Numbered from the stretch's first letter, positions 46,685 through 62,716 are shown. The stretch is 64,000 nucleotides of DNA from Rhizobiales bacterium NRL2 (GCA_001664005.1 CP016093.1:1743001-1807000); one strand, 5' to 3'. Notes: generated by a model from the sequence alone, not told the origin. A program made the numbers and translations.

Positions 46685-48910
46685 ATGACCGGTTTTGTGA
46701 AATCCCTTCTGAGCCTGCTCGTCGTGCCGGCGGTCCTGTTGACCGCGGTCGCATTGCCGTCGCTTGCCGCGGAGGCGCCGCGCAAGGTGATTGCCCTGCA
46801 CCATCCGCATGACGACACGCTGAAACGGCACAACCTGCACCGCCTGGCGGAGATGCCGCTGAACTGGCTCGGCCTGCGCGTCGAGTATCACGAACTCGAG
46901 GATCCGCTGCCGCAGGACGCCATCGACGACCCGGCGGTCGCCGGCGTCGTGAGCTGGTTCGAGCAGGGGAGCATGAACCAGCCGGAACTGTTTCTGGACT
47001 GGGCCATCCGGATGGCCGATGCGGGCAAGAAGTTCGTGTTCCTGGGGGATCTCGGGTTTCTCGCCAACGAGCAGGGCCGCCAGACCGACCGGGGCCTGGT
47101 CAACGCCTTTCTCGGGCGCCTGGGCTTCCGGCTCGGCGGCGACTGGATCGATGTCACCTTCGATACCGAGATCGTTCACCGCGACCCCGACTTCTACGAT
47201 TTCGAACGGCGCATGGGCGGGCGGCTGCCGTCCTATGAACTCTACGAGCCGGTCTCCGACGACACCCGCGTCCTGCTGAAGGTGCGCAACCGCCTGTCAG
47301 GCGTCGAAAGCGCGCTGTTCATGATCTCGCCGGCCGGGGCCTTCGTGGAGGGCGGCTGGGAGTACTACAAGGACCCGGTCCTGTTCCGCACCCAGTGGTA
47401 CGTCAATCCGTTCCGCCTGTTCGCCGAGGTGTTCGACACCGACGCCTTGCCGAAGCCGGATGTGACCACACTGTCGGGCCGGCGGATTTATTTCAGCCAT
47501 ATCGACGGGGACGGCTGGCGCAATGTCAGTCTGGTGCGCGCCTACCGGAACAAGGAAGCCTATTCGGCGCAGGTGGTGATGGAAAAGGTGATCGAGCCCT
47601 TTCCCGATCTGCCTATCACCGTCGGGCCGATCGCCGCCGATCTTGATCCCGAATGGTCGGGCGACGAGAAGGCGCAGGAGATCGCCCGCGAAATCTTCCG
47701 CCTGCCGCAGGTCGAGACCGCGCACCACACCTTCAGCCATCCCTTCGAATGGCGGTTCTTCGAGGACTATACGCCGGAGAAGGAGGCGCCCTTTGTCCGT
47801 CTCTATCCCAATCCGGATATCGAGGCCTGGGGCGCCGATGTGGTGAAGACAGCGTCCAACCGAGTGGTGAGCCTGAAGGAAGCCTATGACCAGCCGCGGG
47901 GCTTCGGGCACGTCCCCTTCGATATCGACCTCGAGTTCGAGGGCGCCTCCGAAGTCGTGAACCGTTTCACCCCGCCGGGCAAGGAGGTCGGGCTGGTGCT
48001 CTGGTCGGGCGATACCTCGCCGTCCGCGCGGATGATACGGGCCTCGCGCGAGGCCGGTCTGCTCAACCTCAATGGCGGCGATTCGCGCTTCGATCCCGAA
48101 TACCCCTCGGTAGGCTATGTGCCGCCCGTCGGTTTCGAGATCGGCGGCGAGCGCCAGATCTACGCCGCCAACAGCAATGAGAACACCTATACGGATCTCT
48201 GGTCGGGCCGCTATTTCGGCTTCCGCGACCTGGTTCACACGCTGAAGAACACCGAGAACCCGCGGCGGCTGAAACCGATCAACGTCTACTATCACATGTA
48301 TTCCGGTGAGCGGGACGCGGCGCTGAATGCCCTGCTCGCCAATATCGAATACGCCCGCAGCCAGCGCATCGCGCCGGTCACCGCCTCTCACTACACGCGG
48401 ATGGCGGAAGGTTTCTACACCACGCGTTTCGAGCCGCTGGGCGCGCGCCGCTGGCGGGTGCTGGACCGCGGGGCGCTGGAGACCGTGCGCTTCGACAAGG
48501 CGGACGGGATCACCGTCGATGTTTCCCGCTCCGAGGGGGTGCTGGGCTTCAACCGTCACCAGGGCAGCCTCTACGTCGCCCTGGACGGTGAGGTGGCGCA
48601 GCCGGTGATCACCCTGGCCGACGCAGGCCCGGCCCCCGGCGCACCATGGCTGATCGACGCCCGCTGGCGCATCCGCGGCCTTGAACGGGGAGCGGACCGG
48701 CTGGCCTTCACCGGCGAAGGCTTCGGGCCGGCCGAGATGCGCTGGGGCGGGATGGCGCCCGGACGATGGCGCGTCGAGGCCATGCTGCCCGACGGCGAGA
48801 CGGTGGGCGTGGATGCCGTCGTCGGCCGCAACGGCATCCTGGACGTGACGCTGCCGGTCCAGGTCTACGGGCCGGTACCGGTGACCCTCTCGCGTCTCGG
48901 CGGGAACTGA
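46685..48910 (+). CDS. pelA: PelA-type exopolysaccharide deacetylase lacking the hydrolase domain
   Basis: A 741-residue exported protein. After the signal peptide (about 1-29) come a Rossmann-like domain, a polysaccharide deacetylase domain with SHIDGDGW (D274 or D276) and AHHTFSHPF (H348, H352), and a C-terminal beta-rich domain near 590-741. These correspond to the reductase-like, deacetylase and jelly-roll parts of PelA. The N-terminal glycoside hydrolase domain of Pseudomonas PelA is absent; Gram-positive Pel loci encode a similar deacetylase-only form. It would de-N-acetylate Pel during export. It heads the pel locus. Confidence 0.85.
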   Translation: MTGFVKSLLSLLVVPAVLLTAVALPSLAAEAPRKVIALHHPHDDTLKRHNLHRLAEMPLNWLGLRVEYHELEDPLPQDAIDDPAVAGVVSWFEQGSMNQPELFLDWAIRMADAGKKFVFLGDLGFLANEQGRQTDRGLVNAFLGRLGFRLGGDWIDVTFDTEIVHRDPDFYDFERRMGGRLPSYELYEPVSDDTRVLLKVRNRLSGVESALFMISPAGAFVEGGWEYYKDPVLFRTQWYVNPFRLFAEVFDTDALPKPDVTTLSGRRIYFSHIDGDGWRNVSLVRAYRNKEAYSAQVVMEKVIEPFPDLPITVGPIAADLDPEWSGDEKAQEIAREIFRLPQVETAHHTFSHPFEWRFFEDYTPEKEAPFVRLYPNPDIEAWGADVVKTASNRVVSLKEAYDQPRGFGHVPFDIDLEFEGASEVVNRFTPPGKEVGLVLWSGDTSPSARMIRASREAGLLNLNGGDSRFDPEYPSVGYVPPVGFEIGGERQIYAANSNENTYTDLWSGRYFGFRDLVHTLKNTENPRRLKPINVYYHMYSGERDAALNALLANIEYARSQRIAPVTASHYTRMAEGFYTTRFEPLGARRWRVLDRGALETVRFDKADGITVDVSRSEGVLGFNRHQGSLYVALDGEVAQPVITLADAGPAPGAPWLIDARWRIRGLERGADRLAFTGEGFGPAEMRWGGMAPGRWRVEAMLPDGETVGVDAVVGRNGILDVTLPVQVYGPVPVTLSRLGGN

Positions 48911-48919
48911 TTCCGGGCC

Positions 48920-51900
48920 ATGCGCATCAACCTGATCCTGCTGGCCATCGTCGTGCTGCTCGGAATCGGTCTGAGCTTCCTGCTGATCCCGCGCGAAAAG
49001 GACGTGGCCCTGCTGCAGCTCAGCAGTCAGGACACGGATCTTGCCGGCCGCGAGACCCTGCTGCAGCGCTACCGCGAAGGCGACCGGTCGGTCCAGGTCA
49101 TCGCCCCGCTCGCCGACCTGGCGCTCAACCTGGGTGAGATCGACGACGCGATCACGCTGCTGGAGGACTATCTGGCGCGCAATCCGAACGACGTCGCGGC
49201 CCGTCGGAAACTGGCCGAATACTATCGGTTCGATCAGCGCCGGGACGCGTTCGTCGCCGCACTGGCCGAAATCGTGGCCCGCGCGGGCACGCCGCAGGAG
49301 CGCCGGCAACTCGTCGACCTGTACCGGGCGCGCGGCGACTACGAGCGGTTGCTGCCCGCTCTGACGGAGCTGGTCGACCGCGGTCTGGCGAAACCGGCCG
49401 ACTACATGGAAGCCGCCGAGCTGGCCGCCTCGTCCGGCAGCCTCGACCAGGCGCTTGCGATCCTGGAGACGATGTGGCGCGTTCACCCGGCTTCGCTGGA
49501 GGCACGCTCGGTCCGGCTCTACGTCCTGGCCGCCGCGGCGGCGGGCGAGACGGCGCGGGCGCAGGAGGTGGTCGCCCTGATGGCCCAGATCAACGGTCCG
49601 GCGGCCATCGTGCCAGTGATCCGCGGCATCGCGGACCGGGGCCAGGCAGCCTTCGGGCTGCGCCTGCTCGAGAGCTTCGAGGATAATCTGCATCTGACGC
49701 CGCCGCTGCTGGTCGCCTGGGCCGACATGCAGCGGGCGCTCGACCGGGAGCAGGTGGCGCTGCAGAAGCTGCTGGAACTGGAAAGGCGGGGCGAGTTGCC
49801 CTCCCTGGCCGTGCCCGTGCTGCTCGACCTGGCGCTGCTGGCCGAGGCCATCGACCTGCTGGAACGCCTGCTGAAGGACCGCGACCTGACCGGCATCGTC
49901 GACTTCCGGCTTGCGGCGATCGGCGACGCGGCCGTGGCCTGGCGGCGCAACGCTCTGCTGGAGCAGATCCATGCCCAGGCCTCCGAGAGTTTCCGGCGTG
50001 GCTATCCGGCGCTGATGGCGGAAGTCCTGATCGGCATCGGCAAGCCGGAGGAAGCGCGGGCGGAGGTGGCGCGGGCGCAGGCGAAGGATGATCTCCGCGC
50101 CCGCCAGCTCATCCGGCTCGCCCGGGCGGAGTTCCGGCTCGGCGAGGACGAGGCGGCGGCGCGGACGCTGGAACGGATCGCAATGGCCCGAGACCTGGAC
50201 GAGGACGCGATCCGCGCGCTCGCCGGTCTCTATCTTTCGGCCGAGCGGACCCGGGCGGGGCTGCGCGCATTCGAACGTCTTCGCCGCGAACGGCCGTCGC
50301 CGGCGGCCGAGGCCGGCTGGGCCCGTATGGCTGCGCGCGAAGGGCGGGACAGCGAGCTGCTCGACTGGCTGCAAGCCAACACTGTCGTGGATCGCGATCT
50401 GCTGGCCGACATCGTGTTCCTCTCGCAGCCCGGACTGGCGCCCAGATCGGCGCTGGCCGCGGCCGAGCGGTTGTACAGGGAGCACCCCGACCGGGAGGCC
50501 CGCCGCCTCTACGGCGACGCGCTGGTCGCCAATGGCCGCGCCGCCGAAGCCGTGCCGGTGCTGGAAGAACTGCTGCCGGGCACGGCGGAGGACGCCGAGA
50601 GTTATGTCGCCGCGCTGGTTGCGGCCGGCCGGAAGATCGAAGCGCTGGCTTGGCTGCGGTCCCGCGCCGAGGAGGACCCCCTGCCGGTGCTGATCGCCGA
50701 CGACTACATGGCGCTGGCGATCGAGCTGGACCAGCCGAAGCTCGCCTATGCCGAGGCCCGGCGCCAGGACCTGCGGAAGTTCGATGACGACACCATCGCC
50801 TCGCTGGCCGAGAACGCCGCCCAGGATGGCGATTTCGCGCTGGTCGACGAGATCGTCGCCGAGGTGGGGGCGCAGTTCATGGCGGCGCGGCCGGTAATGG
50901 CGGCGCGCATCGAGCTGGCCCGCGGCGACGAGACGGCCGCGCAGGAATGGGCGGAGAAGGCAGCGGCCCGTGCCGATCTGCGCAATGCGGACCGGCTCGA
51001 TCTGGCGCGGGTGTGGTCGCTGCTGGGCGAGGACGAGCGCTCCCTGGCCCTGCTGGAAGGCCTTGCGGAGGATCCGGCGACACCCGCCTTTGCCATCGCC
51101 GACCTTGCGGCGCAGTACCTTGAACTGGGCAGGGCGAAGCAGGGCCTGCCGGTGTTCCGCGGCCTGATCGAGCGCCGGCGGGAGCCGCAGGTGCTGGAAG
51201 GCTGGGCCAGGCTGGAAACCCGTTCGGGGGAGCCGTCGCGGGTTCTGGACTGGTTGCGCGGCGGCGATACCGTCAGCCGCCAGGCGCTGGCCGATATCTA
51301 CTATCTGGCGCAGGAGCGCGGCGCGGCGAAAACGGCCTTCGCCGCCGCCGAGCGGCTGTTCGAGGCCTATCCGGGCGACGAGGCGCGGCTGATCTGGGGC
51401 AGGGCACTGACCGACGCCGGCCGGGCCGGAGAAGCCGTGACCGTGCTCCGGCCGCTGCTGCCAGGCGACAGGGAGGTGCGGTCGGCCTATGTCGCTGCCC
51501 TCGGGCGGGGCGGGGATGCCGAGGATCTGAAGGCCTTCGCGCGCACCGCTCTCGACGATCCCGATCTCGATCCGGAAGTGCGCTCGGCGCTGCTGTTCGC
51601 ATTGCTCGAAGGCGGCGCGGCCGATATCGCCCTGCCGCTCCTGCGGGACCTGGCGGAGCGGGATCCGAAGCAGTGGGAAGCCGCCTACCTGGACGCCTTG
51701 CGTCAAACGCAATCCGACGAGGAGCGCGCCCGGGTGCTGATGTCGAAGCTGGACGGCGATCCCCCGCCGGCGCAGCGCGATCCGCTGCTGTTCGAACTGC
51801 TGGAAGTCGGCGGACCGGCGAAGGCGTTGCCCTATCTGAAGGCGGCGGCCGGAGCCGATCCTCTGGGCGCCTGGCCCTCCACCTACGAGGCGGCGCTGTC

Positions 51901-52876
51901 GGATATGGGCCGCCGCCCGGAACTCGTGGAATGGCTGGAACGCCGCGCCCGTCTGCCCGAACTGCCGCGGCAGCAGCGCCGGGAGGCCGCGTTCAGGCTG
52001 CTCGACCTGGAGGCGAAGCCCGAAGCGGTGGCCTCGTTCCGCCGGCTGGCGGAGGATCAGCCCCCTTCCTCGCCCGACGTGCAGCAGCTTCTCTTCCTCT
52101 GGGGCCCGCGGCCGCCGGAGGCAGGGGTCGATTGGCTGGAACAGCGCGCCAGGGCCGCCGCCGGCGATGACCGGGCGGAATGGCTGCAGTTTCTGAACAA
52201 TGCCGGCGCGCCGGGCCGCGTTGTCGCCATTGCCGCCGACCCGCCGCCCGGCCGTCCGGATGATCCTGCGCTGGCGCCGCTGGTCCAGGCACTGGTGACG
52301 GAACGGCGGTTCGATCGCGTCGGCGAAATTCTCTCGCCGCTCGTCGCCCGCGCCGACGACGGGAAGACGCTGCTCAGGCTTGCCGACTGGGCCGAGCAGG
52401 CCGACCAGGGCCGCGTCGCGGTGGCCGCCTACGACCGTGCGCTGGGCATGATCGGCGACGATCCGGCGGCGCTCCTCCGGGCCGGCAGGGCCTTCACCTT
52501 CCAGGGTCGGGCGGAGAAGGCGGTGCAGACGCTGGAGCGCTATTTCGCTGTCGCCGACGTGAAGGGGCGGGCCGATCACCGCCCCTGGTACTACTACGCC
52601 CAGTCCCTCTCGCTGATGGAACGCCAGGAGGCGGCGCGCGGCGCCTACCGTGAAATGCTGTCGCGCATCGAGGCCGGCGACACCAATGATTTCGAGACCC
52701 GGCGCATGCGCGCGACGGGGCTGGAGGCGACCGGCCGGACCGAGGCGGCGATCGCGCTCTACGAGCAGCTTCGCGCCGAGCGGCCGCGTGACCGGTCCCT
52801 GCTGGCCGACTTCGTCTCGCTGCTGATCGAGACCGGCGCCTATGAACGCGCCGATCGTCTGCTGCGGGAGAACTGA
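48920..52876 (+). CDS. PelB-like inner-membrane TPR scaffold (N-terminal part of PelB as separate protein)
   Basis: A 1318-residue protein with one N-terminal membrane helix (about 4-23) and a periplasmic superhelix of TPR-type repeats to the end. It ends in a TPR (IETGAYERADRLLREN) with no beta-barrel. In Pseudomonas PelB the TPR region and outer-membrane barrel are one chain; here the barrel is at 54994-57126. Three related modules recur about every 295 residues (Y438, Y733, L1027 are equivalent). The TPR part of PelB is known to bind PelA. It starts nine bases after pelA. Confidence 0.8.
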   Translation: MRINLILLAIVVLLGIGLSFLLIPREKDVALLQLSSQDTDLAGRETLLQRYREGDRSVQVIAPLADLALNLGEIDDAITLLEDYLARNPNDVAARRKLAEYYRFDQRRDAFVAALAEIVARAGTPQERRQLVDLYRARGDYERLLPALTELVDRGLAKPADYMEAAELAASSGSLDQALAILETMWRVHPASLEARSVRLYVLAAAAAGETARAQEVVALMAQINGPAAIVPVIRGIADRGQAAFGLRLLESFEDNLHLTPPLLVAWADMQRALDREQVALQKLLELERRGELPSLAVPVLLDLALLAEAIDLLERLLKDRDLTGIVDFRLAAIGDAAVAWRRNALLEQIHAQASESFRRGYPALMAEVLIGIGKPEEARAEVARAQAKDDLRARQLIRLARAEFRLGEDEAAARTLERIAMARDLDEDAIRALAGLYLSAERTRAGLRAFERLRRERPSPAAEAGWARMAAREGRDSELLDWLQANTVVDRDLLADIVFLSQPGLAPRSALAAAERLYREHPDREARRLYGDALVANGRAAEAVPVLEELLPGTAEDAESYVAALVAAGRKIEALAWLRSRAEEDPLPVLIADDYMALAIELDQPKLAYAEARRQDLRKFDDDTIASLAENAAQDGDFALVDEIVAEVGAQFMAARPVMAARIELARGDETAAQEWAEKAAARADLRNADRLDLARVWSLLGEDERSLALLEGLAEDPATPAFAIADLAAQYLELGRAKQGLPVFRGLIERRREPQVLEGWARLETRSGEPSRVLDWLRGGDTVSRQALADIYYLAQERGAAKTAFAAAERLFEAYPGDEARLIWGRALTDAGRAGEAVTVLRPLLPGDREVRSAYVAALGRGGDAEDLKAFARTALDDPDLDPEVRSALLFALLEGGAADIALPLLRDLAERDPKQWEAAYLDALRQTQSDEERARVLMSKLDGDPPPAQRDPLLFELLEVGGPAKALPYLKAAAGADPLGAWPSTYEAALSDMGRRPELVEWLERRARLPELPRQQRREAAFRLLDLEAKPEAVASFRRLAEDQPPSSPDVQQLLFLWGPRPPEAGVDWLEQRARAAAGDDRAEWLQFLNNAGAPGRVVAIAADPPPGRPDDPALAPLVQALVTERRFDRVGEILSPLVARADDGKTLLRLADWAEQADQGRVAVAAYDRALGMIGDDPAALLRAGRAFTFQGRAEKAVQTLERYFAVADVKGRADHRPWYYYAQSLSLMERQEAARGAYREMLSRIEAGDTNDFETRRMRATGLEATGRTEAAIALYEQLRAERPRDRSLLADFVSLLIETGAYERADRLLREN

Positions 52877-52974
52877 GCGCCCGGACCGGCAGGGCGGAAC
52901 CGTGTTCCATCGGGCCCGGAGTTGATCTAGGTTCCCACGCCGCTGACTGAGACGCGGGGAAATCGGGGGTCTGA

Positions 52975-53883
52975 ATGTTCTACGAATCCGGCGAGGCGTT
53001 CCGCCAGGATCCGCACAAGTCCATCACGCTGCTCGGCATGTCGGGCGTCGGCAAGACCATGCTGGCCAACAAGCTGCCCAAGCTGGAATGGTTCCACTAC
53101 TCGGCCGACTACCGCATCGGCACGAAGTATCTGGAAGAAGACATCCTCGACAACATCAAGCGCAAGGCGATGCAGGTGCCGTTCCTGCGCAACCTGCTGC
53201 TGAGCGACTCGATCTACATCTGCTCCAACATAACCGTGAACAACCTCGACCCGATTTCGACCTTTCTCGGCAAGATCGGCAATCCGGCCTCTCCCGCCGG
53301 CGAGGAAGGCGGGTTGAGCTATGCGGAGTTCCGGCGCCGTCAGGACCTTCACGAACAGGGCGAGATCAACTCGATGTTCGACGTGGAGCGGTTCAAGAAC
53401 AAGGCGATGGACATCTACGGCTACCCGAACTTCATCAACGATGCCTCAGGCAGCATCTGCGAGATCGTCAATCCCTTCGGCGCGGATGACGACCCTGTCC
53501 TGGCCGCCCTGTCCGCGGGCACGCTGCTGCTCTATATCCGCGCAGGCGAAGCGGACTACAAGCGGGTCGAAACGGCAGCGATGCGGAATCCCAAACCATT
53601 GTTCTACAGGGATGATTTCCTGCGCCACGCCATTCCGGAGTACCGCCGGGATGCGGGGCTGCAGGCGGCCGACGTGGACCAGGTGGACGACATCGATCCC
53701 GACGATTTCGTGAAATGGGTGTTTCCGCGCCTCTGGCGGCACCGCATTCCGCGCTACCAGGCGATCGTGGATCGCCACGGCTACGTCGTCGAGGCCGGTG
53801 AGGTCGCCGAGGTGCAGGACGAGGCCGGTTTCGTGGACCTCGTCGCTCGCGCCATCGACCGTCGCAATCGCGAAGCGGCCTGA
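52975..53883 (+). CDS. P-loop ATPase of unknown function
   Basis: A 302-residue cytoplasmic protein with a clear Walker A motif, GMSGVGKT (21-28), in a kinase-like N-terminal half. I see no recognisable substrate site. Pattern segments are YSADYRIGTKYLEEDILDNI, GLSYAEFRRRQDLH and FINDASGSICEIVNPF. It lies eight bases before the homoserine acyltransferase gene and is likely co-transcribed, pointing to a metabolic or regulatory role with it rather than in Pel. Its position between the two pelB halves is odd. Confidence 0.75.
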   Translation: MFYESGEAFRQDPHKSITLLGMSGVGKTMLANKLPKLEWFHYSADYRIGTKYLEEDILDNIKRKAMQVPFLRNLLLSDSIYICSNITVNNLDPISTFLGKIGNPASPAGEEGGLSYAEFRRRQDLHEQGEINSMFDVERFKNKAMDIYGYPNFINDASGSICEIVNPFGADDDPVLAALSAGTLLLYIRAGEADYKRVETAAMRNPKPLFYRDDFLRHAIPEYRRDAGLQAADVDQVDDIDPDDFVKWVFPRLWRHRIPRYQAIVDRHGYVVEAGEVAEVQDEAGFVDLVARAIDRRNREAA

Positions 53884-53891
53884 GGCTGACG

Positions 53892-54818
53892 ATGAGCGCG
53901 CTGTTGCCGAAAGGCCTGCCGGCTGCGGAGGTCCTGTCGCAGGAAGGCCTCGACATCGAGACCTTCGAGCCGTCCGGCCGTGCGCGCGATCCCGATATCG
54001 TCATCGCGATCCTGAACCTGATGCCCGACAAGCTGGCCACGGAACTTCAACTCATCCGCATGCTGGCGGGCGGGCCGCGCCGCGTCGAGATCGTCCTGTT
54101 CGCCACCGACAGCTACATGGCGCGGGTGCGCGACCCCGCCTACAGCTCCGCCAACACGCCCGTCGAGCATCTGCGGACCTACTACCGCAGTTTCTCGGAA
54201 GTCCGGGATCTGGAGATCGACGGCCTCATCATCACCGGCGCGCCGGTGGAGAAGGAACCCTTCGAGGCGGTGCCCTACTGGGAGGAACTGCTGGAGGTCT
54301 TCGCCTGGGCCGAGGCACGCTCCACCGGCGTCTTCAACATCTGCTGGGCCGCGCAGGCGGCCCTCCGGCATTTCCACCAGGTTCCGAAATACGTCCTCGA
54401 GCGGAAGAAGTTCGGCGTCTACGAGCACCGTATCGAGAGCGAGAGCGAACTCCTGGCCGGCTTCGGGGAAGGTTTCCGCATCCCTGTCTCCCGGCATTCG
54501 GAGATCCATCGCGAGGATCTGCCGGAATCCCCTGACCTTGTCGTCATCGCGGATTCCGAGGGCTCCGGTCTCGGACTGCTGGAGGACCGGCGGCTGCGCC
54601 ATCACTACATGTTCAATCACTTCGAATACGACGCCGACACGCTGGCGCGCGAGTATCAGCGCGATGTGGAGGCGGGGCAGCCGATCGATCCGCCCGTGGG
54701 CTATTTCCCGGACGATGATCCGGCGCAATCGCCCGTAGCCGATTGGGTGGAGGCCGGAAGGCGGATGTACCAGAACTGGCTGGCGATCATCGCTCGGAAC
54801 AAAAATTCCGAAAAATGA
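53892..54818 (+). CDS. metA: Homoserine O-acyltransferase, MetA family
   Basis: A 308-residue class I glutamine-amidotransferase-like enzyme that activates homoserine for methionine synthesis. Catalytic Cys151 is in FNICWAAQAAL, and the HFEYDADTLAREYQRD segment holds further active-site residues. At the position that sets acyl-CoA choice the sequence is GAPVE with E120. In this family Glu is associated with acetyl-CoA and Gly with succinyl-CoA, so it is probably a homoserine O-acetyltransferase. It sits within the pel locus. Confidence 0.92.
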   Translation: MSALLPKGLPAAEVLSQEGLDIETFEPSGRARDPDIVIAILNLMPDKLATELQLIRMLAGGPRRVEIVLFATDSYMARVRDPAYSSANTPVEHLRTYYRSFSEVRDLEIDGLIITGAPVEKEPFEAVPYWEELLEVFAWAEARSTGVFNICWAAQAALRHFHQVPKYVLERKKFGVYEHRIESESELLAGFGEGFRIPVSRHSEIHREDLPESPDLVVIADSEGSGLGLLEDRRLRHHYMFNHFEYDADTLAREYQRDVEAGQPIDPPVGYFPDDDPAQSPVADWVEAGRRMYQNWLAIIARNKNSEK

Positions 54819-54854
54819 GTGGGTTGCGCCCCTTCGTTTGACTTTTCGTTTATC

Positions 54855-54884
54855 TTGACGCCTTACAATCGTGGCCAGCATATT
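54855..54884 (+). promoter_or_regulatory. Putative promoter of the second pel segment
   Basis: TTGACG (54855-54860) and CATATT (54879-54884) are 18 bases apart in the 175-bp gap after metA. They would drive the barrel gene and pelDEFG independently of the genes upstream. It is a prediction from base pattern only. Confidence 0.4.
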
Positions 54885-54993
54885 GCATAGCTGGTACGAG
54901 TTCATGGGCCGTTGGCCGGTCTATCCGGCCGCGGTCCGGGCGTGGGGGCAACGGTTTTGCGGTCCATCAGTGTCTTCGTCTGATCGACATGTG

Positions 54994-57126
54994 ATGAATG
55001 GGGAGTGGTCCGGTCGATTGCGGCGGCTGCTGGCCGGCATCCTGCTGATCCTCTCACCGCTCCCCGTGCTGTCCCAGTCGGCGCCCCTGCAGGCGCCTGT
55101 CGTTCGCGTTCTTTCCGCCGACCTCGGCGCCATGGCCCGGATCGAACTCGACTGGCCGGTGCCGTTCGAGGTTTCGGCGGACACGTCGGCCCGGCGCCTC
55201 ATCCTTGTCTTTGACCGGCCATTCAACGCGCCCGACCTGGGCGCACTTCGCATGCGTCTGGGGCACTGGATCGCGGGCGTCGACAAGCGCGCTGACCGGA
55301 TAACCCTGACCGCCGCCGAGGATGTCTATTTCGACGTCTACAGATCCCTGCGCCAGTTGACGGTGGAGATGACCATCGCGCCCGGGACCGCACCGGCCGC
55401 CGAACGAGCCGCGCCGGCCGCGCGCGCTGCGCCTGTCCTGACGCCGCCTGGCCCTCGGGACCGGGCTCCGGCTGCGCCCGGTCCTGTCGCCGGAAATACC
55501 GCGCGCCCTTCGCCGCCGCCTCCGCCGGCGAGGCCGGATGAAGCGCTGGCGGCGGAGCCGTCGGCATCGCCGTCGGCGTCCCGTCTGCGGCGCACTTCCG
55601 ACCCGTTTGCCGAAACCGTGAACCGCAGCTGGAGCGAGCGGGAAAGCAGGGTCGCACAGCTCTCGGCGCCGCCCCGGGTCACCGCGACGGGAGGCGAAGA
55701 GGGCGCGGAGATCGTCATCGACTGGGCCGGGCCGGTCCGTGTGGACGCCCGCGCGACCGGACGCGAACTGCTGCTCAGGCTGGACCGGCCGGTGGCGCCC
55801 GACATGGTGGCGGGGTTGGCCGAAGGACTGCCGGCCTGGCTGGAAAGCGCCAGCGCGGGATATGACAGCCTGCTCTTCGTCGCCGCGCGTCCCGTCGACT
55901 TCGATGCGCTCACCGAAGCGGGGCGTACGCGCGTGACCCTGGCGGCCACCGACACCGCCCGGGAGGAGCGGGACGCTGCAGACGTGCGGCTGGACGTGCT
56001 GCGCGCGCGGCTGAAAGCCCGCACCGGCGAGACTGGTGAGGCGCGGGAGGCCCTGCAGGAACTCCGGACCGAGAACCCCGAGAATCCCGACGTTCTGGTC
56101 GAGCTCGCCAATCTGGAGCAGAGCGTCGGCGCCTGGCGGCGGGCGGGAAATCTCTACGACCGGGCGGTCGGACTCGATCCCGAACGGCGCGACATCGCCG
56201 CGGCGCGCCGGGCGCTGGAACGCGAATTCGGCCCCTATGTCCGCCTCGACGCCGACTATCAGCAGGTTCAGGACGGCGATACGCAGGTCATCGCGGTGCT
56301 GAGCGGCCGGGTACTGCCGACCGAGGAAATCGACGCCGGCTTCAGCCTGGAGAACCGGTTCCTGGACGACGACGAGGTGCTGCGCGCCAACGGTGTCCTG
56401 GACTCCGTCTCGGCGCATTTCCAGCGCGGCGAGGTCTATGCGGGCGGCAGCCCTGCGCCCGGCCATCGCGTCGAGGGGGCGTTGTTGTTCGGCGCCGGAA
56501 CGCCGGGCGGTTCGCTGCGCTACAGCCATCGTACGCCTGCCTCGCTGACGACCGTGTCGGGCACTTGGCACCGGGCCTACTGGGAACTGGTCGAGGGGAT
56601 CGTCGACGACGCGGTGCAGGACCGCCTGGCGGTGCGCCACGAGCGCCAACTCGACCGCCGCTGGAGCGCCCAGGGCGAGATCGGACTGAACCGCTTCGGC
56701 ATCGCCGGCATCGACACGGCGGCGACGACCTGGGATGCGGCGTTCGCGATCCGCTATCTGGTGCCCTGGGAAGCGGCCGACCTCACTGTCGGCTATTCCT
56801 TCGACGGGCAGTATGTCGTCGCCCAGGCCCGCAGGCGCGACCAGAACGGCAACGTCTTCGAGCCCCTGCCGCTGAACGACACCGAGTTCCATTCGCTCGA
56901 TCTTTCGCTCGGCCAGGCGCTCGGCGGCGACTGGCGCTACAACGCCTTTCTCAGTCTGACCGTCGACCGTTTCGGCGGCTTCGGGCCGAGCCTTGGCGGC
57001 GAGCTGGTCTGGGACGCGGACGAGGACGTGCAGCTCGGTCTCCGCGCCGGCCATTCCCGGGTGTCGGGCCGTGGCGACGATGCCGTCCTCACCACCGTGG
57101 GCGGTCACCTGCTGGTGCGTTTCTGA
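54994..57126 (+). CDS. PelB-like TPR/outer-membrane beta-barrel protein
   Basis: A 710-residue outer-membrane protein. After a signal peptide (about 1-28) come AMIN-like beta segments, a Pro/Ala-rich linker (about 130-180), a second AMIN-like region, one or two TPRs (about 330-420) and a C-terminal antiparallel beta region (about 425-710). This region alternates aromatic strands and ends in Phe (GGHLLVRF), the usual signal for outer-membrane insertion. The barrel is shorter than in Pseudomonas PelB. It would be the Pel export pore, with the TPR scaffold upstream. The start is uncertain: ATG 54994, GTG 54991 or further upstream. Confidence 0.78.
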   Translation: MNGEWSGRLRRLLAGILLILSPLPVLSQSAPLQAPVVRVLSADLGAMARIELDWPVPFEVSADTSARRLILVFDRPFNAPDLGALRMRLGHWIAGVDKRADRITLTAAEDVYFDVYRSLRQLTVEMTIAPGTAPAAERAAPAARAAPVLTPPGPRDRAPAAPGPVAGNTARPSPPPPPARPDEALAAEPSASPSASRLRRTSDPFAETVNRSWSERESRVAQLSAPPRVTATGGEEGAEIVIDWAGPVRVDARATGRELLLRLDRPVAPDMVAGLAEGLPAWLESASAGYDSLLFVAARPVDFDALTEAGRTRVTLAATDTAREERDAADVRLDVLRARLKARTGETGEAREALQELRTENPENPDVLVELANLEQSVGAWRRAGNLYDRAVGLDPERRDIAAARRALEREFGPYVRLDADYQQVQDGDTQVIAVLSGRVLPTEEIDAGFSLENRFLDDDEVLRANGVLDSVSAHFQRGEVYAGGSPAPGHRVEGALLFGAGTPGGSLRYSHRTPASLTTVSGTWHRAYWELVEGIVDDAVQDRLAVRHERQLDRRWSAQGEIGLNRFGIAGIDTAATTWDAAFAIRYLVPWEAADLTVGYSFDGQYVVAQARRRDQNGNVFEPLPLNDTEFHSLDLSLGQALGGDWRYNAFLSLTVDRFGGFGPSLGGELVWDADEDVQLGLRAGHSRVSGRGDDAVLTTVGGHLLVRF

Positions 57127-58637
57127 TGGCGCCGGAGGGTCCCGCCCGGCAGGTTCTGGAGCACACCGACCGCGACATCGCGCCGGCGGAAGTGGCCACC
57201 GCCTATCGCGGCGGCCGACGCAGCATCGCCTATGTGGAACTCGTGCTGCTGGTGGCGCTGCTCGTGGGGCTGGATTTCCTGTTTATGCCGGTGGACGGCT
57301 TCGCCGAGGTCAATCCCAACCCCTACTGGATACCGATCATCCTGCTGGCGGTGCAGTACGGCGTGTTCGAGGGGCTGATCGCGGCCGTCGTGTGCACGGC
57401 GGTCTCCCTGCTCAGCGGCGTCGATCCGGAATTCTACCGGATTGCCCTGGAACAGGGGCCGGCGGCGGCCATGGACCAATCCGTCGGCGGCGGTTTCGCG
57501 ACCTTCAGCGACGAGGACTATTTCATCGCCTGGAGCTATGCCGCTCAGCCGATCATGTGGGTGCTCGCGGCGCTGTTCATCGGCCTGCTCCGCGAACGGC
57601 TGCGCCAGCGCAATCAGGAACTGGCTCACGACCTGGCTCAGACGAGCCATCGCGAGGAGGTTCTGTCGTCCGCCTACAACCAGTTGCTCAACACCAAGGA
57701 GCAACTCGAGATCCGCGTCGCAGGCCAACTCCGCACGGTGTTCACCCTCTATCAGGCCGCGAAGGCGATCGAGAAGCTGGGGCCTGGCGAGGTGCTGATC
57801 GGCATTGCCGACCTGGTGCGCGCGGTCATGCAGCCGACCAAGTTCTCGCTCTACCTGCTCAACGGCAACGTACTGGAAGCCGTGATCAACGACGGCTGGG
57901 AGGATGACGACGCCTATGCTCGCGTCTTCGATTCCGGCTCGCCGGTGTTCCAGCAGGTGGTCGGGCGGCGGCGCTGCCTCAGCGCGGTCAATACCGATGA
58001 GGAGAAGCTGCTGGCGGGCGAGGGGATCATGGCCGGCCCGCTGACATCGGTCGATACCGGTGAGGTCGTCGGCATGCTGAAGATCGAGAAGCTGGGTTTT
58101 CTGGACCTGCACATCTCCTCGCTGGAGAATTTCCGCATCCTCAGCGACTGGGTCGGCACGGCCTTCGCCAATGCCCGGCGTTTCCGCAAGGCGCAGTCCA
58201 ACATGTTGTTCAACGAGGAACGCAACATGTTCACCGACGTGGTCTTCAAGAGTCACAGCAAGCTTATGCGGCAGTTCGGCGAACGCTTCGGCATCGACAT
58301 GACCGCGGTGACGCTCAAGGCCGAGGGGCTGGACGTCCTGCATCCCGAGCGCCGCGCCGGGCTGGTGAAGGCCGTCCACGACGTGGTCGAACACCACATG
58401 TCGCCCGTCGTCCAGGCTTACGAGTATCGCCAGAACGGCCGTGAGTTCGCACTGATCCTGCCCGGCGTCGATCCCGAGACCATGGGCGAGGAGGCGTCTG
58501 CCGGGCTCGTTCGCGCCGTTCTGCACTATCTTCGCGTGGCCGGGCTGGACGATGTGCGGGTGACCGCGAAGGTCATGCCCATCCACCGCGTTCCGCGCGA
58601 GGCCGCGGACGAGAACCGCCGGGCCGAGGGCGCATGA
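57126..58637 (+). CDS. pelD: PelD, inner-membrane GAF/degenerate GGDEF protein
   Basis: A 503-residue membrane protein that in Pseudomonas binds c-di-GMP and activates Pel synthesis. Four hydrophobic segments lie within 35-155, then a coiled coil (158-205), a GAF domain (about 205-350) and a degenerate GGDEF domain (about 360-490). The GGDEF site reads NGREF (437-441). At the RxxD positions, nine and six residues before this motif, stand V428 and A431, so the usual c-di-GMP site is not apparent. The start overlaps the upstream stop (TGATG). Confidence 0.88.
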   Translation: MAPEGPARQVLEHTDRDIAPAEVATAYRGGRRSIAYVELVLLVALLVGLDFLFMPVDGFAEVNPNPYWIPIILLAVQYGVFEGLIAAVVCTAVSLLSGVDPEFYRIALEQGPAAAMDQSVGGGFATFSDEDYFIAWSYAAQPIMWVLAALFIGLLRERLRQRNQELAHDLAQTSHREEVLSSAYNQLLNTKEQLEIRVAGQLRTVFTLYQAAKAIEKLGPGEVLIGIADLVRAVMQPTKFSLYLLNGNVLEAVINDGWEDDDAYARVFDSGSPVFQQVVGRRRCLSAVNTDEEKLLAGEGIMAGPLTSVDTGEVVGMLKIEKLGFLDLHISSLENFRILSDWVGTAFANARRFRKAQSNMLFNEERNMFTDVVFKSHSKLMRQFGERFGIDMTAVTLKAEGLDVLHPERRAGLVKAVHDVVEHHMSPVVQAYEYRQNGREFALILPGVDPETMGEEASAGLVRAVLHYLRVAGLDDVRVTAKVMPIHRVPREAADENRRAEGA

Positions 58638-59779
58638 CCGCGCCCAGGGAAGTCCAGGCGGAACTGGAGCGCATAGAGAGCGACGCACGGCGTCACCGCC
58701 AGACCGAGCGCCAGGGACCGATCCCGACTCTGATGATCCTGGCCTTCTGCCTTGTCGCGATGGCCGGCGAGGCGGCCATGTCCTGGTTCCTGTGGATCGA
58801 GTACCGGCCGCGCTGGACTCCCGGCGCGATCCACCTGGCCACGGTCGTCGTGGTCGGCGTCGCCGCGTGGCGCTTCCGGCCCACCGGTTCGCCCTCCCGG
58901 CTGCTTACGCTGCTGGCGCTTACGACATTCTTTCTCGGCCCGTTCGGGCCTCTCGGAACGCTGCTGGCGCTCGGCCTTCACGCGCTGTTCCGGCGGCAGG
59001 CGACGCCCTTCGAGGAATGGTACGCCTCCCTGTTTCCGGAGGAGGTGGACATGCCTTCCCGGCGGCTGTTCGAGATGCTGACGCGAGGGCTCGCCGACGC
59101 CGCCGGCCAGGAGAACGTCACCTCCTTCACCGACGTGCTGCAATATGGCTCGATCGAGCAGAAGCGGGCGGTGATCTCGTTGCTGTCGCGCGACTTCCGG
59201 CCGGAGTTCGCCCCGGCGCTGCTGTCGGCGCTGTCCGATCCGAATCCGGCGGTCCGCGTGCAGGCGGCGACCGCGGCGGCCAATATCGAAAGCGACTTCC
59301 TTGAACGCGCCATCGAGCTGGAAACCCGCGCGCGGCGTCACCCCGGTGACACCGAGGCGCAGGTCCGGGTCGCGCGGCACTTCGACGACTACGCCTTCAG
59401 CGGCATCCTGGACGAGGACCGGCAGCGGGAGAACCGGGACAAGGCCCAGGCCTATTACCGCAAGGCGCTGGAACTCGATCCGGCCCGCCATGACGCGACG
59501 CTGGGCGTCGGACGGCTGCTGGTCCGGAGCGACCGGCTGGAGGAGGCGGAGGACTGGTTCGAGGAAGGCTTCCGGCGTGGCGTACTGGGGCCGAGCGAGC
59601 TTTCCTGGTACATGGAGGCGGCCTACCGTCTGGGCGATTTCGACAAGCTGCGCTATGCCGTCGCCGCCTTCGGGGACGACATCCTGGCCGGGACCGGCGC
59701 CAGCGACCGCATGCGCGACGTGATCCGCGTCTGGCAGGGTCATGGTCCGGAGAATGAGGCGGGAGCCGCGCATGCATAG
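58634..59779 (+). CDS. pelE: PelE, inner-membrane TPR protein
   Basis: A 381-residue protein with two or three hydrophobic segments (about 30-120), the YASLFPEE segment near 128, a HEAT-like stretch (FAPALLSALSDPNPAVRVQAA) and TPRs (KAQAYYRKALELDPARHDATLGVGRL near 270). The layout matches PelE, which forms the synthase complex with PelD, PelF and PelG in the inner membrane. It overlaps pelD by four and pelF by eight bases. Confidence 0.85.
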   Translation: MTAPREVQAELERIESDARRHRQTERQGPIPTLMILAFCLVAMAGEAAMSWFLWIEYRPRWTPGAIHLATVVVVGVAAWRFRPTGSPSRLLTLLALTTFFLGPFGPLGTLLALGLHALFRRQATPFEEWYASLFPEEVDMPSRRLFEMLTRGLADAAGQENVTSFTDVLQYGSIEQKRAVISLLSRDFRPEFAPALLSALSDPNPAVRVQAATAAANIESDFLERAIELETRARRHPGDTEAQVRVARHFDDYAFSGILDEDRQRENRDKAQAYYRKALELDPARHDATLGVGRLLVRSDRLEEAEDWFEEGFRRGVLGPSELSWYMEAAYRLGDFDKLRYAVAAFGDDILAGTGASDRMRDVIRVWQGHGPENEAGAAHA

Positions 59780-61337
59780 GGTCGGTAATCTGGAGCCGGT
59801 CGACGTCTGCCTGGTGCTGGAAGGTACCTATCCCTACGTCGCCGGCGGCGTTTCGACATGGGTCCACGATCTGATCAACGCGCAGAGCGGGCTGACCTTT
59901 CACATTGTCAGCCTGCTGCCGGGCACCGAGCCGCCGGAGCAGCGCTATGAGATGCCCGACAACGTGCGCGGTCTCAATCACGTCTTCCTGCAGCAGCTTC
60001 CGGTCGGCGCGCGCTGGATGATCAATCTGCGCAAGCGCCTGGCCGAGATGGAGGAGGCGTTGAGGGCAATCCAGTCCGAAGGCGACATCTTCGACCTGAA
60101 GCGCCTGATGGACGAACTGGCCAAGGGTGAGGGGCGCTACGGGCGGCGGCTGCTCATGAACTCCCGGCCGGCGTGGGAGATGCTGCTGCGGATGTATGGC
60201 AAGGACATGCCGGAGGGCTCGTTCCTGGACTATTTCTGGACCTGGCGGTCGCTGCTCGGCGGCCTGTTCAGCGTCATGCTTTCGCCCATGCCGCAGGCGA
60301 AGGTCTTCCACACCATATCGACCGGCTATGCCGGTCTGTTCGCCGCCCGCGCCAAGCTGGAGACCGGCCGGCCGGTGCTGCTCACCGAGCACGGCATCTA
60401 CACCAACGAACGGCGCATCGAGATCGCGATGGCGGACTGGCTCTACGAGGGGCCTTCGGGCAGCCTCGGTCTCGACAAGCCGAAGCGTGATCTGAAGGAT
60501 CTGTGGATCGACACCTTCGTCGCCTACAGCCGCTGCTGCTATCAGGCCTGCGACGAGATCATCACGCTCTATACCGGCAACCAGGACCTGCAGCGCCGCG
60601 ACGGCGCCGAGCCGCACAAGCTGCGCATCATTCCCAACGGCGTCGACTATGAACGGTTCTCGAAGATCCCGCGGGAGCCGCACGACCGGCCGACGGTGGC
60701 GCTGATCGGCCGCGTGGTTCCGATCAAGGACATCAAGACCTTCATCCGCGCCGTGGCCGTGCTGAAGCAGGAGGTGCCCGACGTGCTGGCCTGGATGATG
60801 GGCCCGACGGAGGAGGACGAGGACTACTACCGTGAATGCGTCCAGATGGTCGAGCATCTGGAACTGCAGGACAATTTCGAGTTCACCGGCCGCGTCAAGC
60901 TGGACGAATGGCTGGGCCGGGTCGACGTCATGGTGCTGACCTCGATCTCGGAGGCGCAGCCGCTGGTCATCCTGGAAGGCGGGGCCGCCGGTATCCCGAC
61001 GGTCGCCACCGACGTCGGGTCATGCCGCGACATGCTGCTCGGCATGCCGAAGGAGGATCCGCCGCTCGGCCGCGGCGGCGCTATCACGCCGCTCGCCAAT
61101 CCGACCGAAACGGGCCGGCAGCTCGCCGCCCTGCTGAAGGATCCGGAGGCGATGGCGCGGGCCCGGGAGGCGATCCGGGAGCGTGTGCGGCTCTACTACA
61201 ACAAGGTCGAGATCGACCGCATCTACCGCGACCTCTACGAGACGCACATGGTGCTGCCCGATCGGCCCGAAGCGGACAGGTTGCCCGCACCGGCCGGGGG
61301 AGAAGGCGGCGGCGGGAGCGAGATGGAGGCGGCCTGA
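59772..61337 (+). CDS. pelF: PelF glycosyltransferase (GT4)
   Basis: A 521-residue cytoplasmic glycosyltransferase of the Pel synthase. LVLEGTYPYVAGGVSTWVH at the N-terminus, TEHGIYTNERRIEI near 210, IIPNGVDYERF and the late SEAQPLVILEGGAAGIP motif with its E-x7-E pattern define PelF. It polymerises UDP-activated N-acetylhexosamines (in Pseudomonas mainly GalNAc). The ATG at 59772 overlaps the pelE end by eight bases and precedes the conserved N-terminus. A flexible, Gly/Glu-rich tail ends the protein. Confidence 0.93.
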   Translation: MHRVGNLEPVDVCLVLEGTYPYVAGGVSTWVHDLINAQSGLTFHIVSLLPGTEPPEQRYEMPDNVRGLNHVFLQQLPVGARWMINLRKRLAEMEEALRAIQSEGDIFDLKRLMDELAKGEGRYGRRLLMNSRPAWEMLLRMYGKDMPEGSFLDYFWTWRSLLGGLFSVMLSPMPQAKVFHTISTGYAGLFAARAKLETGRPVLLTEHGIYTNERRIEIAMADWLYEGPSGSLGLDKPKRDLKDLWIDTFVAYSRCCYQACDEIITLYTGNQDLQRRDGAEPHKLRIIPNGVDYERFSKIPREPHDRPTVALIGRVVPIKDIKTFIRAVAVLKQEVPDVLAWMMGPTEEDEDYYRECVQMVEHLELQDNFEFTGRVKLDEWLGRVDVMVLTSISEAQPLVILEGGAAGIPTVATDVGSCRDMLLGMPKEDPPLGRGGAITPLANPTETGRQLAALLKDPEAMARAREAIRERVRLYYNKVEIDRIYRDLYETHMVLPDRPEADRLPAPAGGEGGGGSEMEAA

Positions 61338-62716
61338 TGGCGGGCATCGGCTTCGCGCTCCGGCGGCTCACCAGCCGCGACGACCTGCTGGGCATCGTCC
61401 AGGGCTACACCCATTCGGCCGTGGTTTCGTCGGGACCCTGGCTGTTCACCATCCTGGCGGTGGGATCGATCAACCTGTTCGGCATCTACCTGACGACGGT
61501 CGCGGAGCTGATCACCTTCCGGGTCATCCTGATCTACAACTTCGCCTTCAGCCTCGCCTTTTCCGGACCCGTCCTGCTGGTGGCGACGCGTTATCTGGCC
61601 GACATGATCTTCCGCAAGGAGGTGGAGGAGGCGCCGGGCATGCTGCTGGCGGCGATGGTGCTGCTGCTGGGCAGTCAGGCGATGATCGTGGTGCCGTTCT
61701 ACCTGTTCGTGGTCGACCTGCCGCCCGACCTCGCGGCCGCCGGCATCGTCAACTATTTCCTTGTCGCCGCGATCTGGCTGGTGAACGTCTTTCTGACCGC
61801 GCTGAAGGACTACCGTTCGGTCACGCTGGCCTTCCTGGTCGGGATGATCACCGCGGGCGGCGCCAGCCTCTGGCTCGCCGGCGTGATCGGCGCGCTGGGC
61901 ATCACCATCGGCTTCAACATCGGCCTTGGCATCATCTTCTTCGGGCTGATCGCGCGGGTATTCGCGGAGTATCCCTACCGCATCATGCGGCCCTGGCGCT
62001 TCATGAGCTACTTTCGGAAATACTGGGACCTGGCGCTGGCGGGGCTGATCTACAATGTTGCGATCTGGGTCGACAAATGGGTGATGTGGAGCGCGCCCCA
62101 ACGCGAGGTCACCGCAGCCGGCTTCGTCACCTACCCGGCCTATGACGGCGCCATGTTCCTGGCCTATCTCACCATCGTACCGGCCATGGCGATCTTCATC
62201 GTCAACATCGAAACCCGCTTCTTCGAGCACTACCAGCGCTTCTACCGGGACATCGAGCACCACGCGAACTACCAGCGCATCGACAGCAACCATCGCAACA
62301 TCATCCAGGCGCTGCTGATGGCCTCGCGCAATGTCGTGATCCTGCAGTTCTGCATCTGCGTCACCGTGATCCTGGTGGCCGGCCGGCTGTTCGACGTGCT
62401 GTCCTTCCCGCCGCTGCAGCTCGGCATCTTCCGTTTCGGCGTGCTGGGCTCGCTGTTTCACGTCCTGCTGATGTTCGTCGGCATTGTGCTGGCCTATTTC
62501 GACCTGAGGCGGGTGATGCTGCTGGTGCAGGTGGTCTTCCTGCTGACCAACGGTCTGTTCACCTGGGCGACGATGGAAATGGGCTTCGCCTGGTATGGCT
62601 ATGGCTACTTCATGGCTTCGCTGGTGACGTTCGTCCTCGGCTACGGCCTGTGCGCCTGGTATGTCGGGCGGCTACCCTTCCTCACCTTCGTGCAGAACAA
62701 CACCTCGGTCCGGTAG
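61337..62716 (+). CDS. pelG: PelG, Pel polysaccharide transporter
   Basis: A 459-residue inner-membrane protein with about twelve hydrophobic segments, related to flippase-type exporters. MAGIGFALRRL, the GPWLFTILAVGSINL segment, EYPYRIMRPWRFMSYFRKYWDL and FFEHYQRFYRDIEHHANYQRI (about 288-308) are characteristic of PelG. It moves the growing polymer across the inner membrane. It overlaps the pelF stop (TGATG), and its last 45 bases overlap the convergent pdeM. Confidence 0.93.
   Translation: MAGIGFALRRLTSRDDLLGIVQGYTHSAVVSSGPWLFTILAVGSINLFGIYLTTVAELITFRVILIYNFAFSLAFSGPVLLVATRYLADMIFRKEVEEAPGMLLAAMVLLLGSQAMIVVPFYLFVVDLPPDLAAAGIVNYFLVAAIWLVNVFLTALKDYRSVTLAFLVGMITAGGASLWLAGVIGALGITIGFNIGLGIIFFGLIARVFAEYPYRIMRPWRFMSYFRKYWDLALAGLIYNVAIWVDKWVMWSAPQREVTAAGFVTYPAYDGAMFLAYLTIVPAMAIFIVNIETRFFEHYQRFYRDIEHHANYQRIDSNHRNIIQALLMASRNVVILQFCICVTVILVAGRLFDVLSFPPLQLGIFRFGVLGSLFHVLLMFVGIVLAYFDLRRVMLLVQVVFLLTNGLFTWATMEMGFAWYGYGYFMASLVTFVLGYGLCAWYVGRLPFLTFVQNNTSVR

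Follow-up and report, generated by a model that had tools for sequence, protein, structure and literature searches.

Pel is a sticky exopolysaccharide of biofilms. Among the closest described relatives of the system considered here is the pelABCDEFG locus of Pseudomonas aeruginosa, whose PelBC complex combines a single-chain PelB with a PelC dodecamer (PMC12141448; PDB 9h80). In P. aeruginosa PelC is essential, and it has been described as a hallmark of Pel secretion in Gram-negative bacteria, although its exact role is said to be unclear (PMC12141448); pel operons have also been sought with PelC as bait (PMC7112168). Variants have been reported too, namely a 'pelB fission' in aquatic thermophiles (Bundalovic-Torma et al., 2020; PMC7112194, Fig. 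5iii legend) and, among free-living Rickettsiales, a 'derived pel' cluster whose PelB and PelE equivalents are altered (PMC9352585, Extended Data Fig. 3). Here we describe the pel locus of Rhizobiales bacterium NRL2, which lies in a 64,000-nucleotide stretch of DNA (CP016093.1:1743001-1807000; hereafter the window) of its complete 4.70-Mb genome. We consider it likely that this is a real, probably functional Pel variant that lacks PelC, has its PelB in two pieces and belongs to a split-PelB subtype; it is a variant of a known system and not a new kind, and its most interesting aspect is the recurrent absence of PelC rather than the PelB split. This reading builds directly on gene content, on PelC not being found in the genome, on predicted folds and on the unlinked PelB halves of congeneric (Minwuia) genomes, six of which were examined, including the complete chromosome CP018227.

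All genes of the locus lie on the + strand, in the order pelA, pelB1, a P-loop NTPase, an HTS/MetA acyltransferase, pelB2, pelD, pelE, pelF and pelG. The pel genes are as follows (positions counted from the first nucleotide of the window; aa, amino acids):

46685..48910, + strand: pelA, 741 aa; mixed α/β and CE21 deacetylase domains, without the N-terminal GH166 hydrolase domain
48920..52876, + strand: pelB1, 1318 aa; uncleaved membrane anchor at the N-terminus, then a TPR scaffold whose final element is a TPR
54994..57126, + strand: pelB2, 710 aa, last residue Phe; outer-membrane half of PelB
57126..58637, + strand: pelD, 503 aa; GAF and degenerate GGDEF (PF13492, E=1.6e-8; pelD profile)
58634..59779, + strand: pelE, 381 aa; HEAT and TPR
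59742..61337, + strand: pelF, 531 aa; GT4 glycosyltransferase (NF038011, E=3.2e-138)
61337..62716, + strand: pelG, 459 aa (PF16933, E=4.7e-123)

PelF, a full-length PelF equivalog (NF038011), and PelG (PF16933) are encoded by adjacent genes, and PelD and PelE are present with homologs in identical order across dozens of pel loci. A preliminary description made from the sequence had recognized pelA and pelD to pelG, a 1318-aa TPR protein and a 710-aa protein ending in Phe whose gene directly overlaps pelD; the family tests and open reading frames agree with it, and pelB2 and pelD meet in a TGATG overlap with pelD starting at 57126. The coordinates thus stand, but two genes between the PelB halves (52975-53883 and 53892-54818) had been overlooked, and further features absent from that description are two β-domains ahead of the TPRs in PelB2, a PelA without its hydrolase domain and a PelD that has lost the cyclic di-GMP (c-di-GMP) motif. 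The locus shares with P. aeruginosa the PelD-E-F-G order and a deacetylase PelA, whereas P. aeruginosa differs in its single-chain PelB without an AMIN-like domain, its PelC dodecamer, its PelA with a hydrolase domain and its PelD with an RxxD motif. The single chain uniting scaffold and porin in the PelBC complex is not found at the NRL2 locus.

To place the locus, pel loci were gathered by searching about 800 genomes for PelG and scanning a genome collection of 84,980 species for PelF, and were annotated with iterated profiles. In a quick PelF+PelG tree of 83 loci, 77 separate from six loci with single-chain PelB (SH-aLRT 100); their hosts are Alphaproteobacteria, Magnetococcales, Nitrospinota and some Gammaproteobacteria. 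Eight of the 77 have PelB1 and PelB2 as one fused chain, and the rest have them split (in some, PelB1 lies outside the stretch analysed); on this phylogeny a split PelB, with the eight fused exceptions, marks a monophyletic Pel subtype. PelC is present in 37 of these loci, between pelB2 and the next pel gene, and absent from 40, with at least eight changes of state on the tree; the spacing from pelB2 to the next pel gene is of two sizes, about 50-200 or over 600 bases, except in three Nitrospinota loci. Since 37 subtype loci retain pelC, the two features are independent: the split is a subtype trait and the loss of PelC a separate, repeated event. The preliminary description had presented the split as a rearrangement of the NRL2 locus and asked whether it and the loss of pelC form a lineage trait; the split is instead what a large Pel subtype normally shows, and PelC loss recurs independently of it. 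All eight fused loci lack PelC, and loci without PelC keep open frames. Of two sister species on short branches of the tree, Azospirillum canadense (L112) has PelC and A. rugosum (L115) lacks it; no PelC was found in the A. rugosum genome, where the best profile match has E=0.18.

Among related systems, the fission clade of Bundalovic-Torma et al. shares with NRL2 the encoding of PelB by two loci, and we found no mention in that paper of PelC loss, a junction domain or unlinked halves (PMC7112194). The Azospirillum loci (L092, L094-L101, L103, L112, L115, L166) share a split PelB and the arrangement pelA-pelB1-pelB2-(pelC)-pelD-E-F-G but are contiguous, mostly with pelC, and have an intact PelD RxxD and one AMIN-like domain against two in NRL2. 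Two Rickettsiales loci (L154, L164) lack pelC, like NRL2, with PelB1 and PelB2 fused, unlike NRL2. Among open-licence papers we found no description of the breadth of the subtype or of recurrent PelC loss; earlier reports elsewhere are possible. Several loci show further elaborations. Five from Gammaproteobacteria (L125, L133, L136, L139, L141) carry two tandem PelC genes, which might form a mixed or double ring. In Nitrospinota (L128, L129, L140) PelB comes in three pieces (784, 625-640 and about 560 aa), two of which carry the β-domain (seen in L128 and L129), and the space of 390-550 bases ahead of pelD may harbor a diverged PelC. In L044 (contig 11 of genome G419) and L013, pelB1 is directly followed by pelD and no pelB2 was found within the stretch; G419 carries a second, complete pel locus (L042).

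The absence of PelC from NRL2 was assessed with a profile built from nine PelC proteins, which retrieved P. aeruginosa PelC in PDB at 4e-37 and recovered the PelC proteins of four control genomes with E-values no higher than 3e-74. It gave no credible match in the seven Minwuia genomes (G000-G006), that of NRL2 (G000) included, where the best match (E=1.27) falls in a 704-aa BTAD/TolB-like regulator; a PelC encoded elsewhere in the genome is thereby rejected for these seven at the reach of a nine-sequence profile. Within the NRL2 pel locus there is no PelC either, the sole lipobox-like short open reading frame being antisense inside pelE. The earlier remark that there is no room for pelC at its usual place is correct for the locus and understated, since none of the seven Minwuia genomes yielded a pelC at any place. 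PelC is likewise absent from the whole genomes of several other split-PelB bacteria by profile search. The different periplasm-spanning export machine suggested in the preliminary description is borne out as well: with a two-piece PelB and a genome-wide absence of PelC, the route across the periplasm is unlike the one in P. aeruginosa.

PelB2 was modelled with AlphaFold2 using 24 homologs (whole-chain mean predicted local distance difference test score, pLDDT, 80.9), giving two β-domains, a stalk helix, two TPRs and 16 barrel strands:

55105..55377, + strand: first AMIN-like β-domain, PelB2 aa 38-128; extra copy, profile match E=9e-11
55675..55947, + strand: second AMIN-like β-domain, aa 228-318; copy common to the subtype, pLDDT 93.5 when modelled alone with AlphaFold2
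55951..56229, + strand: stalk helix and two TPRs, aa 320-412; TPR matches and AlphaFold2 model
56236..57120, + strand: 16-strand barrel, aa 415-709; AlphaFold2 strand list and barrel profile match

The top PDB match of the model is P. aeruginosa PelB (9h80 chain M, E=1.6e-15; TM score 0.73 by target length), with BcsC and the polysaccharide secretin 4y25 ranking below it, so the structure prediction proposed at the outset yields a PelB-like 16-strand porin. Barrel profiles of the split-type and single-chain PelB also align (hhalign probability 95.7, E=9.6e-9, 280 columns). The predicted barrel has a helix between strands 7 and 8, a long loop between 11 and 12 and a Gly-containing loop between 15 and 16, and Plug-I, Plug-O and Plug-S of P. 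aeruginosa PelB have been described at matching positions (PMC12141448); the two proteins thus share, on the NRL2 side as predicted, the 16-strand barrel, the plug-loop positions, the stalk and the last two TPRs. The two β-domains align to each other with a BLOSUM score of 93, against a maximum of 42 among 300 shuffles, and by this measure are a true internal duplication. For the second β-domain, Foldseek gives weak matches, of which AmiC (4bin) and PilQ (4aqz, 4av2) superpose well (root-mean-square deviation under 4, TMq 0.64-0.69). The matched domains in AmiC and PilQ are AMIN domains.

PelB1 begins with a hydrophobic helix with no evident cleavage site, which parallels the inner-membrane anchor at the start of the P. 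aeruginosa TPR scaffold, and continues with TPRs to its last residues (Pfam matches extend to residue 1316). Its homologs occur in both split and fused loci, and natural PelB1-PelB2 fusions are found in L021, L118, L131, L149, L151, L154, L161 and L164. The identification of PelB1 as the inner half of PelB rests on its locus position, its N-terminal anchor and these eight fusions; of the two proteins that the preliminary description had taken for parts of PelB, the outer is thus a homolog by structural match and the inner is assigned by position, anchor and fusions. The β-domain lies at the start of PelB2 in most loci, mid-chain in four fused proteins and at the C-terminal end of PelB1 in L022, and a profile search did not find it in eight single-chain PelB loci. 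Together, the natural fusions and L022 put the break in PelB at this β-domain junction. It is not a frameshift, since Minwuia and the wider subtype keep PelB in two pieces, and identical boundaries in independent genomes also reject an assembly artefact.

Several observations weigh against parts of this picture. By hhalign profile comparison, PelB1 matches the single-chain PelB scaffold with a probability of 92.9 and the PelE control scores 93.2, so that by profile the homology of PelB1 to that scaffold is inseparable from generic TPR similarity. The AMIN assignment is one of fold (Foldseek E about 0.03-0.09), and small heat-shock proteins outrank AmiC and PilQ by E-value, though they superpose poorly; because Pfam AMIN gave no match among the families listed for the 24 PelB2 proteins, 'AMIN-like' is used here as a statement on the modelled fold only. 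Nor is the domain supported as a substitute for PelC, PelC-containing loci carrying it too; what sets Minwuia apart is the duplicated copy, found otherwise in L036, which has PelC. An unrelated lipoprotein doing the job of PelC could also have gone unseen.

In four Minwuia genomes (G001, G002, G003, G005) pelA-pelB1 lies away from NTPase-HTS-pelB2DEFG, the two pieces being at 1.20-1.21 Mb and 4.13-4.14 Mb in the complete genome G003, whereas related families have all pel genes in one row. In these congeners PelB1 and PelB2 must therefore come from different transcripts and meet as separate proteins. Gene order suggests that the NTPase-HTS pair was probably inserted between the halves first, as still seen in the NRL2 locus and G004, and that the other branch later came apart at that place. 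The interposed genes are:

52975..53883, + strand: P-loop NTPase, 302 aa; not a pel gene
53892..54818, + strand: HTS/MetA-family homoserine acyltransferase, 308 aa; metabolic gene (PF04204, E=8.4e-88)

The NTPase has weak homoserine-kinase similarity (E=0.002) and no Pfam family above the cut-off. The two form a unit of their own, since the NTPase adjoins an HTS gene in each of the five loci checked outside Minwuia, and the pairing recurs in several alphaproteobacterial genera (L174-L178); the weak kinase similarity suggests a methionine-pathway pair. A role as Pel parts was rejected, the pair also being found in genera without a pel match.

PelA matches the PDB entry 9cgy (phmmer E=3.1e-64) at residues 244-346, 434-562 and 585-857 and keeps the CE21 motifs HIDGDG and HTFSHPF; there is no match to 9cgy before residue 244, where the GH166 hydrolase domain would be expected. 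Other subtype members often have a GH114/166-type gene just upstream of pelA. In Minwuia the sole such gene lies elsewhere, at 3844181 in G000, about 2 Mb from the pel locus, and is possibly a detached Pel hydrolase, its closest solved relative being Thermotoga TM1410, to which it is nearer than to PelA. This GH114-type gene (L179 4122-5066; G000:C1 near 3844181) is kept in all seven Minwuia genomes. At the I-site position of PelD the alignment shows a replaced motif:

58401..58412, + strand: PelD I-site position, aa 426-429; SPVV in place of RxxD (alignment of PelD rows)

RxxD of PelD is the c-di-GMP-binding motif in both P. aeruginosa and B. cereus (PMC7112168) and is kept in 72 of 96 PelD rows, while all Minwuia rows with pelD (L004-L007, L009, L089 and the NRL2 locus) have SPVV or SPMV there. 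The NRL2 genome has nine GGDEF matches. With the motif gone, Pel output in Minwuia would probably be under transcriptional or other signal control. Elsewhere PelD ends after GAF, without the degenerate GGDEF, in L020, L104, L107, L108, L110, L106, L134 and L148, all PelC-less; the whole GGDEF is lacking in the Telmatospirillum group, L106, L134 and L148.

Possible correlates of PelC loss were also compared. Loss of rim arginines, suggested by the contacts of PelC Asp119, shows no difference in PelC-less PelB2 (mean 9.1 versus 8.75 Arg); PelB2 rims are less acidic without PelC, yet independent pairs give no support; and RxxD is missing in 18 of 40 PelC-less against 1 of 40 PelC-bearing rows, though the tree gives too few independent pairs for a test (median p=1).

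We propose that PelF would make a GalNAc-type (N-acetylgalactosamine) polymer, which would cross the inner membrane via PelD-PelE-PelG. PelB1, anchored in the inner membrane, would span the periplasm as a TPR superhelix and dock PelA, which would deacetylate the chain, before passing it to PelB2 as the exported outer-membrane porin; the AMIN-like module at the junction may hold PelB2 to peptidoglycan, the end of PelB1, or both. The complex would assemble in trans and work without the 12-subunit PelC funnel. A bolder form of this proposal, a PelC-independent exporter uncoupled from c-di-GMP in which the two PelB proteins stand end to end and the duplicated, peptidoglycan-binding AMIN-like module does the positioning otherwise done by the PelC ring, we hold as tentative and rather doubtful.

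PelC might have been replaced rather than lost, the periplasmic ring around PelB2 being formed by a different outer-membrane lipoprotein that has the CsgG/LpoB/GNA1162 fold and whose gene lies elsewhere. PelC belongs to a broad CsgG/LpoB-like fold group in Pfam, leaving scope for a stand-in of low similarity, and its profile finds weak matches in several PelC-less genomes (G052, 5.5e-9; G676, 1.1e-6); yet the best NRL2 match is the regulator mentioned above, and PelC-less operons run pelB2 almost directly into the next pel gene with no conserved extra gene there, making this unlikely. Alternatively, the product could be a related polymer other than Pel, such as a less deacetylated and less cationic chain for which PelC is needless. 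This would fit the proposed role of PelC as an anionic funnel for cationic Pel (PMC12022489, PMC12141448) and the suggestion that divergent pel operons make different polymers (PMC7112194), but PelA retains its CE21 motifs, PelF is of full length, and PelC comes and goes between relatives as close as the two Azospirillum sisters, for which a new polymer at every change is unlikely; we rate this possibility as quite improbable. Least probable is a decaying locus, with the split PelB and the lost PelC, PelD motif and PelA hydrolase marking degeneration of an unused system. Several parts and motifs are indeed missing together, and the loci of congeners are broken into two places, but frames are open across the genus, PelG and PelF are about 78% and 75% identical between Minwuia subgroups, the PelA deacetylase motifs and PelB2 barrel are intact, and a split PelB common to diverse lineages is not decay.

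Taken as a PelC-less, two-piece Pel variant, the NRL2 locus has consequences for the family. A PelC-baited operon search would miss PelC-less loci, and the two-piece PelB opens the scaffold-to-porin handover to interaction tests. Relatives with and without PelC, such as the two Azospirillum sisters, which share a two-piece PelB, are natural pairs for probing the role of PelC, whose recurrent absence suggests that a part regarded as a hallmark of Pel secretion may be dispensable.

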